Assembly (NCBI GenBank): GCA_903865745.1
Contig: CAIPKV010000068.1
Span: forward strand, 1 to 64,000
Reading direction: 5' to 3'
Length of the DNA: 64,000 nt
Source of the DNA: an uncultured Verrucomicrobia subdivision 3 bacterium
GTDB lineage: Bacteria > Verrucomicrobiota > Verrucomicrobiia > Limisphaerales > UBA11358
The position numbers and the translations under genes are program-made. The notes under the pieces are model-generated. The model saw only the letters and a list, made by a program, of their open reading frames with translations. It did not search any database and was not told where the DNA came from. Shown here one piece after another: positions 4,378 through 24,614 of this stretch (the first letter of the stretch is position 1; every line of letters starts with the position of its first letter).

Positions 4378-5292
4378 CTACTTCATGTCGGTGGTGAAAC
4401 TCGCGACGATGGGGCGATGGTCGGAGCCGATGCCCCAGTTGGGAATGGCCGGGATGTAGGTATCGGCGGCGAGCCAGTGCAGTTTCAGCGCGGGACTTAC
4501 CAAGATATAATCAATGCGGGAATAGGTATCGGTCTTGCCGTAAAAGTAAGTCCACGAGACATCGCGCGGCTCGAAATAGGGCGGTTCGCCGGGCGCAGTG
4601 TCGCCGTTGCGTTCGGCGGGGCGCGTGTCGGTGAGCTTGAACTTTCCACGCCCGATGACCATCTTCATCGTGTCGGAATCTTTGGTGTCATTGAAATCGC
4701 CGAGGACGATGAGATTGGCGGCCGGATTTCTAGTGAGGCGCGCATCAATGAGGCCGCGCAAAACTTTGGCTTCACTAAGACGCTCCTCGGCCTCATCGGC
4801 CTCCGGTGTGGTGAGGTGCGATTTCAAATGCGCGGCCAGTAGCGTGAAGTTAAAGTTGGTCGCGACTTGGATGTCCACTTCCACGAAGCCGCGCTTGACC
4901 TGAAAACGTTTGCCATCGAGCAGGAATAAATCGTTCGTATGTGGCCGACGCGCGACGATGGGAAACTTGCTCAACACGGCGACATGGATGCTAGTGTCGT
5001 AACTCTCGATATGCTCCCAGTAGGGGAAATCCTGTACGTTAGCCTTGAGCGAGGCGCGCATTTCCAGGAGCGCATTGGTGGTGCCCATTTCTTCAAGCGC
5101 GAGTATATCGGGATTTAGTATGCGGATGCTTTCGCGGATTTCGGCTTTGGCTTCGACGGACTTGACGCGTGAGCGGGTATCAGTTGGTTGATCTAAATAA
5201 TTTTCGACGTTATAAGTCGCGACACGGAAAGTACCGGGTAAAGCATTGCCTGCGGCCAACAAAAGAGCGAGCAGGGCGGGGCGAAAGGACAT
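4378..5292 (-). CDS. Secreted endonuclease/exonuclease/phosphatase family protein
   Basis: 304 residues with an N-terminal signal peptide (MSFRPALLALLLAAGNALPG). The EEP fold motifs are in order: RVATYNVENYLD (Asn), LALEEMGT (Glu metal ligand), LIVLGDFNDTKDSD (Asp/Asn) and IGSDHRPIVASF (catalytic Asp-His). The family includes DNase I-like nucleases, sphingomyelinases and other phosphodiesterases, and the substrate cannot be read from sequence. It is transcribed alone, away from folE2. Confidence 0.85.
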   Translation of the reverse strand: MSFRPALLALLLAAGNALPGTFRVATYNVENYLDQPTDTRSRVKSVEAKAEIRESIRILNPDILALEEMGTTNALLEMRASLKANVQDFPYWEHIESYDTSIHVAVLSKFPIVARRPHTNDLFLLDGKRFQVKRGFVEVDIQVATNFNFTLLAAHLKSHLTTPEADEAEERLSEAKVLRGLIDARLTRNPAANLIVLGDFNDTKDSDTMKMVIGRGKFKLTDTRPAERNGDTAPGEPPYFEPRDVSWTYFYGKTDTYSRIDYILVSPALKLHWLAADTYIPAIPNWGIGSDHRPIVASFTTDMK

Positions 5293-5411
5293 CTGGCAGG
5301 TTAGATGCGGCAGGTAGTTCCTGAAAGAACAACCGTGAAACTTTCTTGGAAAATAATTTGAACAAATCTACGCCGACCCGGTCTCATATCTGATTGGTTT
5401 GGGGTATGGTT

Positions 5412-5456
5412 AAAGCGCCTGACTTTTATTGGGTTTTTAGTCAGGCGCTTTTTTTT
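5412..5456 (+). terminator. Terminator hairpin in the folE2 leader (attenuator candidate)
   Basis: A perfect 13-bp stem, AAAGCGCCTGACT (5412-5424) and AGTCAGGCGCTTT (5439-5451), with a 14-nt loop and a run of eight T. Reading on the plus strand it ends 34 nt before the folE2 ATG. No plus-strand gene lies upstream, since the neighbour at 4378-5292 is divergent. It therefore terminates either a short RNA or a regulated folE2 leader. Confidence 0.8.
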
Positions 5457-5489
5457 GCCCAAATCATTTAAAGCTGCTACTTTCTCACC

Positions 5490-6341
5490 ATGTCTCGTAA
5501 AACCAAAAGCAATCAGTTGCCGTTAAAATTGGATGACAAGCAGAGCGAGCGCGACACGCGCGAGCTGCGAATTGACAAGGTTGGCGTGCGCGGGTTGCGG
5601 TTTCCCATTCAAGTGCGCGACCGTGTCCATCGCGTGCAAAATACCGTCGCCACGCTGGGGATGTTCGTGGACCTGCCGAAGGAATTCAAAGGCACGCACA
5701 TGAGCCGGTTTGTCGAGGTGCTGACGTCCCATGGCAATGTGATTCATGTTGAGAACATCAAGGAGATTTTGCAGGAGCTGCAGCGGAAGCTGAATTCCGC
5801 CACGTCGCATCTGGAAATCGAGTTCCCTTATTTCATGAGCAAGAAGTCGCCGGTGTCGCGGCGCGAGAGTTTGATGGACTACATCGCGCGCTTTGACGCG
5901 GCGGCTTGCGGCAAGGAAACGGATTTTGTGCTGACGGTGAAAGTTAACGTAACAACGCTGTGCCCCTGCTCAAAGGCGATTGCCAAATATGGCGCGCATA
6001 ACCAGCGCGGCGAGGTGACGGTGGCGTTGCGGTTTAAAAAGATTGTATGGATTGAGGAAGTCATTGAGATGATTGAGGCGTCGGCGAGTTCCGAACTTTA
6101 TGCCTTGCTCAAGCGTCAGGACGAAAAGGCGGTGACGGAGCGGGCGTATGAAAACCCCGTTTTTGTTGAAGATTTGGTGCGTAACGTGGCCCTGCGGCTC
6201 AACGCGCATCCGCTGGTAACGTGGTATAAGGTGGAGGCGGAAAACTACGAGAGCATCCACAATCACAACGCCTACGCGTGCATCGAACGCCGTCCGGAAA
6301 TCCGCATCCGGATGGCCAAACTGCCGCGCGGGACGGCGTGA
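5490..6341 (+). CDS. folE2: GTP cyclohydrolase IB (FolE2)
   Basis: 283 residues. It converts GTP to 7,8-dihydroneopterin triphosphate, the first step to folate and queuosine. Unlike FolE (type IA) it does not need zinc. The signature VTTLCPCSKAI with the catalytic Cys, followed by YGAHNQRGEV, is specific to the IB family. The C-terminal VEAENYESIHNHNAYA is also conserved. In several bacteria folE2 is derepressed by Zur under zinc starvation. Its place 1-3 kb from zinc-free ribosomal proteins, a ZIP transporter and a Fur-type regulator fits that role. A terminator hairpin sits just upstream. Confidence 0.93.
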   Translation: MSRKTKSNQLPLKLDDKQSERDTRELRIDKVGVRGLRFPIQVRDRVHRVQNTVATLGMFVDLPKEFKGTHMSRFVEVLTSHGNVIHVENIKEILQELQRKLNSATSHLEIEFPYFMSKKSPVSRRESLMDYIARFDAAACGKETDFVLTVKVNVTTLCPCSKAIAKYGAHNQRGEVTVALRFKKIVWIEEVIEMIEASASSELYALLKRQDEKAVTERAYENPVFVEDLVRNVALRLNAHPLVTWYKVEAENYESIHNHNAYACIERRPEIRIRMAKLPRGTA

Positions 6342-6451
6342 AGTTTGTCTGCCCAAAAAACGCGAAAATTTGTGTGGCATATTTGATTCCTTTTGATACA
6401 TTCCCGCGCTCTTGATGAATCGGTATTACCACCGGAAATCAGTTTAATTTT

Positions 6452-7048
6452 GTGACTGCAAAGAAAAAAATTTCGAATAAGCCCGCCCCGCGCGGCAAGG
6501 CCAAGAACGTCGCGACGTCGGCGGCCATATTAGGTCGTCCGGTGTCCAAGGCTAGTGCTGGTCCAGACCTCAAGAAGGTTAAGCCGGAATGGCAGAAGTT
6601 CTGCCTGCACTTGCTGGAACTGCGCGAGCAGTTGACCAAGCAGATGAATGGCCTCGCTGCCGAATCGGCGCAGGAGATGGCTGGTTATAGTCTGCATATG
6701 GCAGATTCCGGCACGGATAATTTTGACCGCGATTTCGCGTTGAGCCTGCTCTCCTCCGATCAGGACGCCGTTTATGAAATCGAGGAAGCCCTGAAGCGTA
6801 TCGAACGTAAGACTTACGGTGTGTGCGAACTGACGGGCAAAAGCATTCCCAAGGCGCGGCTCGAGGCGATTCCATGGACGCGCTTCACGGTGGACGCGCA
6901 GGCGCAGCTTGAACGTGAAGGCGCCCTGAAGTCCCGCCGGCTTGGCACCCTTGGAACGATTGACGCTGTCGGCACCACTACGGATGTGGACGGCGAAGAA
7001 GAAGAAAATACCGACGAAGCGGTAAAAGTTAACAAAGAAAAAGAATAA
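6452..7048 (+). CDS. DksA/TraR-like protein with degenerate zinc finger
   Basis: 198 residues from GTG 6452. A basic, Ala/Lys-rich N-terminus is followed by a DksA-type helical region ([35 protein letters not shown]) and the finger region [20 protein letters not shown]. In canonical DksA four cysteines bind zinc. Here only Cys125 remains, with Thr at the second position (128) and TVDA where the second pair should be. DksA binds the RNA polymerase secondary channel and works with ppGpp, and zinc-free paralogues (DksA2) act when zinc is scarce. This degenerate form may be a lineage trait rather than a starvation paralogue. rpmG follows after 4 nt. Confidence 0.85.
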
Positions 7049-7052
7049 TTTT

Positions 7053-7220
7053 ATGGCCCGCGAAACCATCACCATCGAATGCACGGAAGCACGCAAGGAA
7101 GGCAAGTCGCCTTCACGCTACACCACCAGCCGCAATAAGAAATTGCAGACGGAAAAGCTGGAGGTTAAGAAATACAACCCCGCGCTCCGCCGCCACACCC
7201 TGCACAAGGAGATTAAGTAA
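7053..7220 (+). CDS. rpmG: Large ribosomal subunit protein bL33, cysteine-poor form
   Basis: 55 residues, the usual bL33 length. [20 protein letters not shown] and [10 protein letters not shown] are clear bL33 signatures. Zinc-binding (C+) bL33 has CTEC and CPFC pairs. Here they read CTEA and NPAL, so only one cysteine is left and zinc cannot be held: a C-minus form. The insertion KEGKSPSRY is typical of C-minus versions. It lies in an apparent operon with the DksA-like gene and rpsR (3 nt downstream). Confidence 0.95.
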
Positions 7221-7223
7221 TTT

Positions 7224-7481
7224 ATGCCCCGCAAGACAAATACCGATAAGAAGACCGACAAGCGCGGTAAGAGCACCCGGGAACAGCGCACGCCGCGCCC
7301 GAAGCCGAAGTGCGATTTCACGATTGACGCGCTTGACTACAAGAACGTCAACCTGCTCCGCACGTTTGTAACCGATCAAGGCCGTATCTTGCCACGCAAA
7401 TATACGGGCCTGCCCGCGCCTTACCAGCGCCGCATGACGGCCGCCATCAAGCGCGCACGTCAGATGCTGCTGATGAAGTAA
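7224..7481 (+). CDS. rpsR: Small ribosomal subunit protein bS18
   Basis: 85 residues. The core [30 protein letters not shown] and [18 protein letters not shown] is characteristic of bS18, which pairs with bS6 on the 30S platform. The N-terminus is a Lys/Arg/Thr-rich extension. A single Cys before DFTIDALDY means the protein lacks a zinc-binding cysteine set. It is the last gene of the dksA-like/rpmG/rpsR unit, closed by a strong terminator. Confidence 0.95.
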
Positions 7482-7488
7482 CTCTCCC

Positions 7489-7525
7489 GCCGCGCGACTG
7501 GCCTTGCCGTCGCGCGGCATTTTTG
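7489..7525 (+). terminator. Terminator after rpsR
   Basis: Stem GCCGCGCGAC (7489-7498) and GTCGCGCGGC (7509-7518), 10 perfect base pairs, then ATTTTTG. It separates rpsR from the metal transporter. Confidence 0.85.
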
Positions 7526-7535
7526 TAGACTTAAG

Positions 7536-7552
7536 TTGCAAACGATTTGCAA
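7536..7552. promoter_or_regulatory. Palindromic Fur-family operator candidate
   Basis: TTGCAAACGATTTGCAA is a perfect 7-3-7 palindrome, also readable as TTGCAA-N5-TTGCAA. That spacing matches the published Nur (nickel-responsive Fur family) box consensus. It covers the translation start of the ZIP transporter, whose partner gene is a Fur-family regulator, so autoregulation is likely. The cognate metal (Zn or Ni) is inference. Confidence 0.6.
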
Positions 7553-8317
7553 TTGAAAACTCTCACCGCCTCCATTCTGTTTCAGATTTTCCTGGCTTTC
7601 GGTATCGCTGTGGTTGGCGGCGCATTGAGCGGGCTGCTGGCGCGGACGCACCGTCAGCTTTGCGCCTTCATCAGCCTTGGCGCTGGTACACTGTTGGGGG
7701 TGGCGCTATGCGGTATCGCGCCGGAATGTCTTGAGTCGCTGAGGATGTGGGAGTTTCTGCTGGCTGGCGCCTCCGGCTATTTTCTGTTCGCGCTGGTTTC
7801 GAAGTATGTGTACCACGTCTGTCCGGCCTGCGCGGCCAGCCATTTTGACGAAGCCACGACGCACCGGCTGGCCGAATTCGCTACTGCCATGATGTTCGCA
7901 CTGGCGATTCATTGCACCGTGGACGGCTTGGCGCTGGCTGCGGGTAATGAAGAGGCCACACCAGTGCGACTATCCATTATCTTTGCCATCTGCGTTCACA
8001 AATTACCTGAAGGGTTGGCGCTCGGTGCGCTGTTGATTGGCGGCGGTGTGGCGCGTTTGAAAATGCTCTGGCTGGTGGCGGCTGTGGAATCCACGACCAT
8101 TCTGGGCGGATTGATCGGCTGGCTTTTCCTGCACAGCGCCTCAGATTTCTGGCTAGCACTGGCCCTGGCAAACGCCGCTGGCGGATTTTTATATCTCGCG
8201 CTACATGCTGTCCTCGGGGAAATCCTAAAACATCACAAAGGTTTGGTCCTGGCGAATTTTGCCGCCGGGTTTGCGGCCATTGCTGGTCTCATTCTTTATT
8301 TTCATTTGAAAGCCTGA
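7547..8317 (+). CDS. ZIP-family metal transporter
   Basis: 256 residues, about eight transmembrane helices. TTG at 7547 or 7553 are the possible starts and no ATG is near. Diagnostic ZIP metal-site motifs are AIHCTVDGLALAAG (helix 4, His and Asp) and VHKLPEGLALGALLIGG (helix 5, H-x-x-P-E-G). ZIP proteins import zinc or other divalent metals across the inner membrane. The last residues end 6 nt before the Fur-family gene, so the two are co-transcribed. The palindrome over the start codon suggests that the regulator controls this operon. Confidence 0.88.
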   Translation: MQLKTLTASILFQIFLAFGIAVVGGALSGLLARTHRQLCAFISLGAGTLLGVALCGIAPECLESLRMWEFLLAGASGYFLFALVSKYVYHVCPACAASHFDEATTHRLAEFATAMMFALAIHCTVDGLALAAGNEEATPVRLSIIFAICVHKLPEGLALGALLIGGGVARLKMLWLVAAVESTTILGGLIGWLFLHSASDFWLALALANAAGGFLYLALHAVLGEILKHHKGLVLANFAAGFAAIAGLILYFHLKA

Positions 8318-8323
8318 ACGCTG

Positions 8324-8782
8324 ATGAAAAACTGCGTTCACAAGCACCACAAGAAAAAGCAGGAACTTGCCTCACTGACGGGTCGCTTGCGACGCGAAGC
8401 GCGCAAAATCACCAGCCCGCGCGCCGCGATTCTGGAGATTTTACGCCATCATCCGCATCCGCTGACCATCAAGGAGATTTTTGCCGAGCTCCCTAAAGGT
8501 GGCTGCGATCTTGCCACGATTTACCGAGCGATGCAGATGCTCGAAAAACTAGGCATGGTGAAGCGCTTTGATTTCGGCGATGGCGCGGCGCGGTTTGAAC
8601 TCGTCGGGGAAGGAGAAGACGGCCACCATCATCATCTCATTTGCACCCGCTGTGCTGGCGTGGTGGAGATTGACGAATGTTTTCCCGAAGAGATCGAGCG
8701 CCGGATAGCGAGCGTCAACGGATTTGCCGGTGTGACCCACCGGCTAGAGTTCTTTGGCGTCTGCCCCGGCTGCCAGAAATGA
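8324..8782 (+). CDS. Fur/Zur-family metalloregulator
   Basis: 152 residues. A basic N-terminal arm is followed by the winged helix (ITSPRAAILEILRHHPHPLT, LATIYRAMQMLEKLGMVKR) and a dimerisation/metal domain with GHHHHLICTRC and CPGCQK, the two CxxC pairs of the structural zinc site. The His cluster before CTRC is the sensory-site region. Linkage to a ZIP importer and to folE2, C-minus L33 and a C-minus DksA-like gene favours Zur over Fur, while the TTGCAA-N5-TTGCAA operator resembles a Nur box. The metal is not proven. Confidence 0.88.
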   Translation: MKNCVHKHHKKKQELASLTGRLRREARKITSPRAAILEILRHHPHPLTIKEIFAELPKGGCDLATIYRAMQMLEKLGMVKRFDFGDGAARFELVGEGEDGHHHHLICTRCAGVVEIDECFPEEIERRIASVNGFAGVTHRLEFFGVCPGCQK

Positions 8783-24299: not shown

Positions 24300-24614
24300 T
24301 CAACGGTTCTTGGCGCTAAATATCTCTTTCCCGAAAACGTCCACGCTATCCACGAGGCCAATCACGACGGCGTCTACCGGCGCTTCCTTCATGCCGGGAG
24401 CGAGGCGGGCGCTGCTACCCTGGCAAAACAAGACCAGTTCGCCTTCGCCGGCACCAAGGTTGTCCACGGCCACGATGGTGTTGGCCCCCGGACGAAACTT
24501 GGTCGGGTCTTTTTCGTCCACGAGCTGTGGGCGGAGCAGCAACAGTTTGCGGCCCGACATGTTCGGGTCTTTCTTGGTGGCGACCACCTGGCCTTCGACT
24601 TTGGCGAGGAACAT
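24300..24614 (-). CDS. BMC-P shell vertex protein (EutN/CcmL family)
   Basis: 104 residues from ATG 24614, chosen because MFLAKVEGQVVATKKDPNMS is the family start. Longer readings run into an inverted repeat. The turn IVAVDNLGAGEGELVLFCQG and the end DAVVIGLVDSVDVFGK match EutN/CcmL. Third pentamer paralogue of the locus; it precedes the aldehyde dehydrogenase by 7 nt. Confidence 0.92.
   Translation of the reverse strand: MFLAKVEGQVVATKKDPNMSGRKLLLLRPQLVDEKDPTKFRPGANTIVAVDNLGAGEGELVLFCQGSSARLAPGMKEAPVDAVVIGLVDSVDVFGKEIFSAKNR

Follow-up and report, generated by a model that had tools for sequence, protein, structure and literature searches.

A hairpin upstream of folE2 in a Verrucomicrobia genome is very probably the 3' end of a multi-copy small RNA with its own ECF/RpoE-type promoter

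The window analysed here is a 64,000-nucleotide stretch of DNA from an uncultured Verrucomicrobia subdivision 3 bacterium (GCA_903865745.1, contig CAIPKV010000068.1, positions 1 to 64,000 of the forward strand), and the feature of interest lies in the space between two divergent genes. On one side, the gene at 4378-5292 is on the minus strand. On the other, folE2 (GTP cyclohydrolase FolE2; 5490-6341, plus strand; NF010200, 281.8 bits with a cut-off of 215) starts with an ATG at 5490. The plus-strand genes at 5490-8782 comprise folE2, followed by DksA-like and S18 genes that are seemingly depleted of zinc-binding cysteines, and, after the S18 gene, a ZIP-type transporter and a Fur-family regulator. 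This cluster looks like a zinc-sparing (Zur-type) one.

Between the two genes, the plus-strand arms AAAGCGCCTGACT (5412-5424) and AGTCAGGCGCTTT (5439-5451) pair perfectly over 13 bp around a 14-nt loop. A T8 run (5449-5456), whose first three T double as stem-closing bases, completes a predicted intrinsic terminator (5412-5456, plus strand). Its fold has an energy of -22.4 kcal/mol, compared with a shuffled mean of -15.0 (z -2.67), and 0 of 200 shuffles were as good. A simple terminator scan missed it because the scan accepts loops of 3-8 nt only, which the 14-nt loop exceeds. The initial annotation had described a perfect 13-bp hairpin with a T8 tail, located 34 nt before folE2 and without a plus-strand gene ahead of it. 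The pairing and the shuffled-fold comparison bear out the hairpin, the distance is correct to within 1 nt (33 nt separate the end of the T8 run at 5456 from folE2), and the preceding gene does indeed lie on the minus strand and is divergent. With its upstream neighbour oriented the other way, the hairpin can only end a transcript initiated between 5293 and 5412.

The stem is also conserved in other copies of the same element, which are described below. In an alignment of 38 sequences (22 in an earlier version), made by sequence and not fitted to the structure, four pairs are changed on both sides, and the 37 double-changed cells compare with 12.4 on average after shuffling. Additionally, 98.2% of cells are paired, and shifting the partner by a single column destroys the signal. 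To judge from this conservation with compensatory changes across dozens of copies, the hairpin is more than a chance fold.

Ahead of the hairpin, two elements are arranged as in a bacterial promoter. The -35 element, TTGAAC (5358-5363, plus strand), is preceded by an A/T-rich stretch (5350-5357) and is conserved in nearly all copies, and the -10 element, GGTCTCA (5380-5386, plus strand), lies exactly 16 nt past it. TTGAAC followed by GGTCT or a near variant is present at nearly every copy, with the 16-nt gap in 39 of the 45 copies scored; a few copies have a degenerate -10 element. When the spacing was fixed at 16, 40 of 50 copies agreed in at least 9 of 11 letters and 30 of 50 in all 11, whereas the promoter score never rose above 8/11 at 95 look-alike control hairpins from unrelated bacteria. 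These controls were among the matches listed from a hairpin-pattern scan of GTDB contigs and are mostly unrelated terminators. The same letters and spacing occur in E. coli rpoHp3, which reads TTGAAC-TTGTGGATAAAATCAC-GGTCTGATAAAA in the MG1655 record: the window promoter (TTGAAC-N16-GGTCT, 5358-5384) is identical to it in 11 of 11 fixed letters. This rpoH site is the sigma-E promoter P3. For the sigma-E sRNAs rybB and micA, the motifs given in the literature are GGAACTTTT and GTCAAA (PMC1804206). The promoter is therefore assigned by its sequence to the ECF/RpoE type. A sigma-70 consensus scan of the 4-8 kb part of the window returned no site.

If transcription starts 5-6 nt past the -10 element, as estimated from the promoter, the product would be a small RNA of about 65 nt (5392-5456, plus strand), a unit also supported by the covariance models R1 and R2 described below. 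The predicted fold of 5392-5456 consists of the terminator hairpin only, with the first ~20 nt unpaired and G/U-rich. These nucleotides form a 5' tail, GATTGGTTTGGGGTATGGTT (5392-5411, plus strand), that is a putative antisense region, and GATTGG-TTTGGG-TATGGGTT is conserved in the tails of the folE2-type copies. The hairpin before folE2 is thus very probably the 3' end of a separate sRNA gene of about 65 nt, with an ECF/RpoE-type promoter of its own. One of two readings in the initial annotation, a small RNA of about 100 nt that ends at the hairpin, is strongly supported, although at about 65 nt, and the reading extends here to a multi-copy family under an ECF/RpoE-type promoter of its own.

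When 97 relatives were searched at the DNA level with 5293-5520, 20 genomes gave matches, mostly spanning 5350-5456. In ten genomes the sRNA lies directly before folE2, as a rule beside the same divergent nuclease gene. The window's own genome has a second copy (L021; G000:C13, about 24472-24582, minus strand), which precedes an aspartate aminotransferase gene, as do copies in several relatives. Other copies precede a DUF3300-like gene, neighbour isocitrate dehydrogenase or lie at further sites; the names of these surrounding genes come from reading translations and not from a family search. A covariance search of the leader across related genomes, as the initial annotation had proposed, recovered a covarying, multi-copy RNA. 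Model R1, which is restricted to the putative transcript (71 positions, starting a few bases downstream of the promoter), gave 50 matches spread over 28 of the 49 genus genomes, with 1-8 per genome, and model R2, which includes the promoter, found 49 places in 28 of the 49. The three weakest genus matches (L077-L079) lack the promoter and were counted as false. The family has about 47 copies in these 28 genomes, two of them in the window's genome; in the other 21 genus genomes the covariance models detected no copy. Across the order, R1 matched four genomes outside the genus (E <= 1e-4), and the promoter is present in three of them. When R2 was run on 387 genomes of the phylum, under strict filters at which weak matches are lost, every match at E <= 1e-7 fell within the genus. 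Among the hairpin-pattern matches listed from GTDB contigs were contigs labelled 'Limisphaerales bacterium' and 'Verrucomicrobia subdivision 3 bacterium'. A search of the window with Rfam 15 at the gathering threshold returned a tRNA as the sole match, a lax-threshold search returned only sub-threshold, chance-level matches, and no paper on the RNA family was found in the open-access literature searched. By the lack of an Rfam match, the family is previously uncatalogued.

The promoter type is not confined to the sRNA. Across the 49 genomes, TGAAC-N16-GGTCTNAT has 43 matches, compared with 5 for the reversed pattern. Sorted by reading the sequences, 17 of these belong to the sRNA, 13 lie immediately before the start of rpoD, 4 precede a WCxWC protein, 1 precedes ispH, and 8 are unassigned. 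When rpoD upstream regions of the genus were read directly, 21 of 30 (L262-L291) have CTGAAC-N16/17-(G/A/T)GTCT or a near variant that ends a few nucleotides before the ATG, and the window's own genome has such an rpoD site at G000:C84:52695-52723 (L030, L085). Because this ECF/RpoE-type promoter ends so close to the rpoD ATG, a leaderless rpoD mRNA is implied. Similarly, an orthologous-looking WCxWC thioredoxin-like small secreted protein has the same promoter in four genomes (L325, L336, L341, L353). The occurrence of this promoter type before rpoD, a secreted thioredoxin-like gene and ispH in relatives suggests an envelope/redox-stress regulon. A candidate for the sigma factor that would read the sRNA promoter is an ECF protein encoded in the window's own genome (L088, G000:C26), that scores best against the RpoE family (TIGR02939, 159 bits, short of the equivalog cut-off of 236). 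An autoregulatory promoter was looked for before this gene and not found. Next comes a gene for a short protein, predicted to have a single membrane stretch, that could be an anti-sigma factor, and then a ParA-like gene.

From these features we infer how the sRNA would be transcribed, by which kind of sigma factor, and how it would act in trans on its targets. Under stress, an ECF sigma factor of RpoE type would recognise TTGAAC-N16-GGTCTCA (5358-5386). Transcription would begin near 5392 and stop at the intrinsic terminator at 5456, yielding an RNA of about 65 nt in which an unpaired, G/U-rich 5' tail is followed by a stable hairpin and a U-tail. If the RNA acts as RpoE-driven sRNAs do, its 5' tail would pair with mRNAs and lower them once the envelope/redox stress regulon is on, and folE2 would be transcribed separately from its own promoter just past the terminator. 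The RNA is viewed as most likely an ECF-sigma-driven, trans-acting antisense sRNA that is comparable to MicA and RybB and unrelated to them in sequence.

A more specific version of the antisense reading, which we regard as tentative, is that the paralogous RpoE-type-driven sRNAs pair through their 5' tails with the start codons of leaderless or short-leader mRNAs. One branch of the family retains TTTCAT close to its predicted 5' end. The element is present in 16 of all 50 copies versus 2.4 expected from shuffles, a count that measures conservation and not independent events, since the copies are related. TTTCAT is complementary to ATGAAA starts; the window copy lacks it and has GATTGGTTTGGGGTATGGTT instead. 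On the start-codon-pairing reading, GUUUUCAU near the 5' end in this branch would be complementary to the AUGAAA(A) starts typical of secreted proteins, and the copies would diversify their tails to cover different targets. Across the genus, CCCAAACCAAT, the complement of the 5' tail, outnumbers its reversal, but to a like degree whether or not a genome has the sRNA, which makes this search uninformative. When two 5' tails were compared with 1,624 crude gene starts in 1.84 Mb of the relative G034, duplex energies were on the whole no better than for control windows or shuffled tails. In the same genome, very strong duplex sites near the start codon (<= -23 kcal/mol) numbered 9 versus 2-4, a difference too weak to name targets.

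The RNA could also be made but act by binding a protein through repeated GGGUU segments and not by antisense pairing. The G/U-rich tail and loop, the recurrence of GGGTT in most copies, and the lack of a clear signal in complementarity-based target searches are consistent with this. However, the diversified tails and the anti-start-codon TTTCAT branch (16/50 vs 2.4) fit antisense action better, and protein binding, for which there is no known partner, is considered unlikely. It is less probable still that the copies are mobile or repetitive terminator elements (REP-like) with no regulatory function, kept as terminators or insulators between genes. Multiple copies, a patchy distribution over many intergenic places and 5' tails that differ between copies would all be expected of such an element. 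Yet the copies diverge strongly outside the promoter and hairpin while retaining the promoter spacing and compensatory stem changes, their number is low, and the folE2 and aspartate aminotransferase positions are common to several species.

The relationship between the sRNA and folE2 bears on the second reading of the initial annotation. A putative folE2 promoter, recognised by its consensus in a conserved stretch, consists of TTGCCC (5455-5460) and, after 17 nt, TACTTT (5478-5483; 5455-5483 overall, plus strand), with 6 nt to the ATG. Its -35 element abuts the T-run of the sRNA terminator, and because its -10 element ends 6 nt before the ATG, a leaderless or near-leaderless folE2 mRNA is implied. 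At the 30 folE2 loci that were read, the sRNA is directly upstream in 10, displaced upstream in 1 (G039), and absent in 19. One of these 19 (G043, with eight sRNA copies elsewhere) has an apparent decayed copy of the sRNA and terminator upstream of folE2 (L370). A TTTTTGCCAAAT ... GCAAAGCTG(C/T)TA stretch, ending a few nucleotides before the ATG, is present whether or not a folE2 locus has the sRNA, and varies in more distant genomes. Since this folE2-proximal stretch is kept either way, the sRNA seems, in one clade, to lie ahead of a folE2 promoter that was already there, and folE2 is judged to lie outside the sRNA transcription unit. Stress-dependent read-through from the sRNA into folE2 may occur to some extent. 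Attenuation of folE2 by a pterin-, preQ1- or metal-sensing RNA, in which the folE2 mRNA would start near 5392 and a ligand or protein would choose between termination and read-through, has in its favour that the terminator and folE2, 33 nt downstream of it, point the same way, an arrangement kept in 10 genomes, but is not supported and is highly improbable: the same RNA also precedes unrelated genes, 19 of the 30 folE2 loci lack it yet keep the folE2-proximal promoter region, a conserved promoter region of folE2 itself follows the terminator, no Rfam leader or riboswitch (THF, preQ1, metal) reaches threshold, and the predicted fold has no alternative antiterminator, the leader at 5405-5490 adding only a short hairpin extension. 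Comparison of sequences across genomes shows an RNA family with its own promoter, terminator and covarying stem that is independent of folE2.

RpoE-controlled sRNAs are best known from gamma-proteobacteria. If the separate, RpoE-type-driven sRNA proposed here is real, then the pairing of an ECF sigma factor with a small RNA arose elsewhere too, in an unrelated, paralogous sRNA family of Verrucomicrobia. With the same motif ahead of rpoD itself and of a secreted thioredoxin-like gene, a large phylum that has been little studied would gain a regulon open to testing. The analysis also corrects the reading of the hairpin as a folE2 riboswitch, an easy mistake to make. Anatomically, the feature in the window resembles an RpoE-dependent sRNA, and it is a putative member of this functional class. 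Like MicA and RybB of E. coli and Salmonella (PMC1804206), it would be a short intergenic RNA (~70-80 nt in those cases) with a Rho-independent terminator and an RpoE-type promoter, and the regulon logic proposed, that of envelope stress, is the same. Unlike them, it belongs to a different phylum, has paralogous copies and has no sequence relation to either (no Rfam match), and its sigma dependence, any Hfq dependence and its targets are putative. Furthermore, E. coli rpoHp3 drives a heat-shock sigma gene, whereas the same motif here would drive a predicted sRNA and, in relatives, rpoD. OmrA/B, Qrr and LhrC are multi-copy sRNA families whose paralogous copies share the 3' hairpin and have diverged in their 5' regions. 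The family described here differs from these in sequence, regulator and phylum, but, going by their general description, it resembles them in its paralogous copies, shared 3' hairpin and diversified 5' regions.
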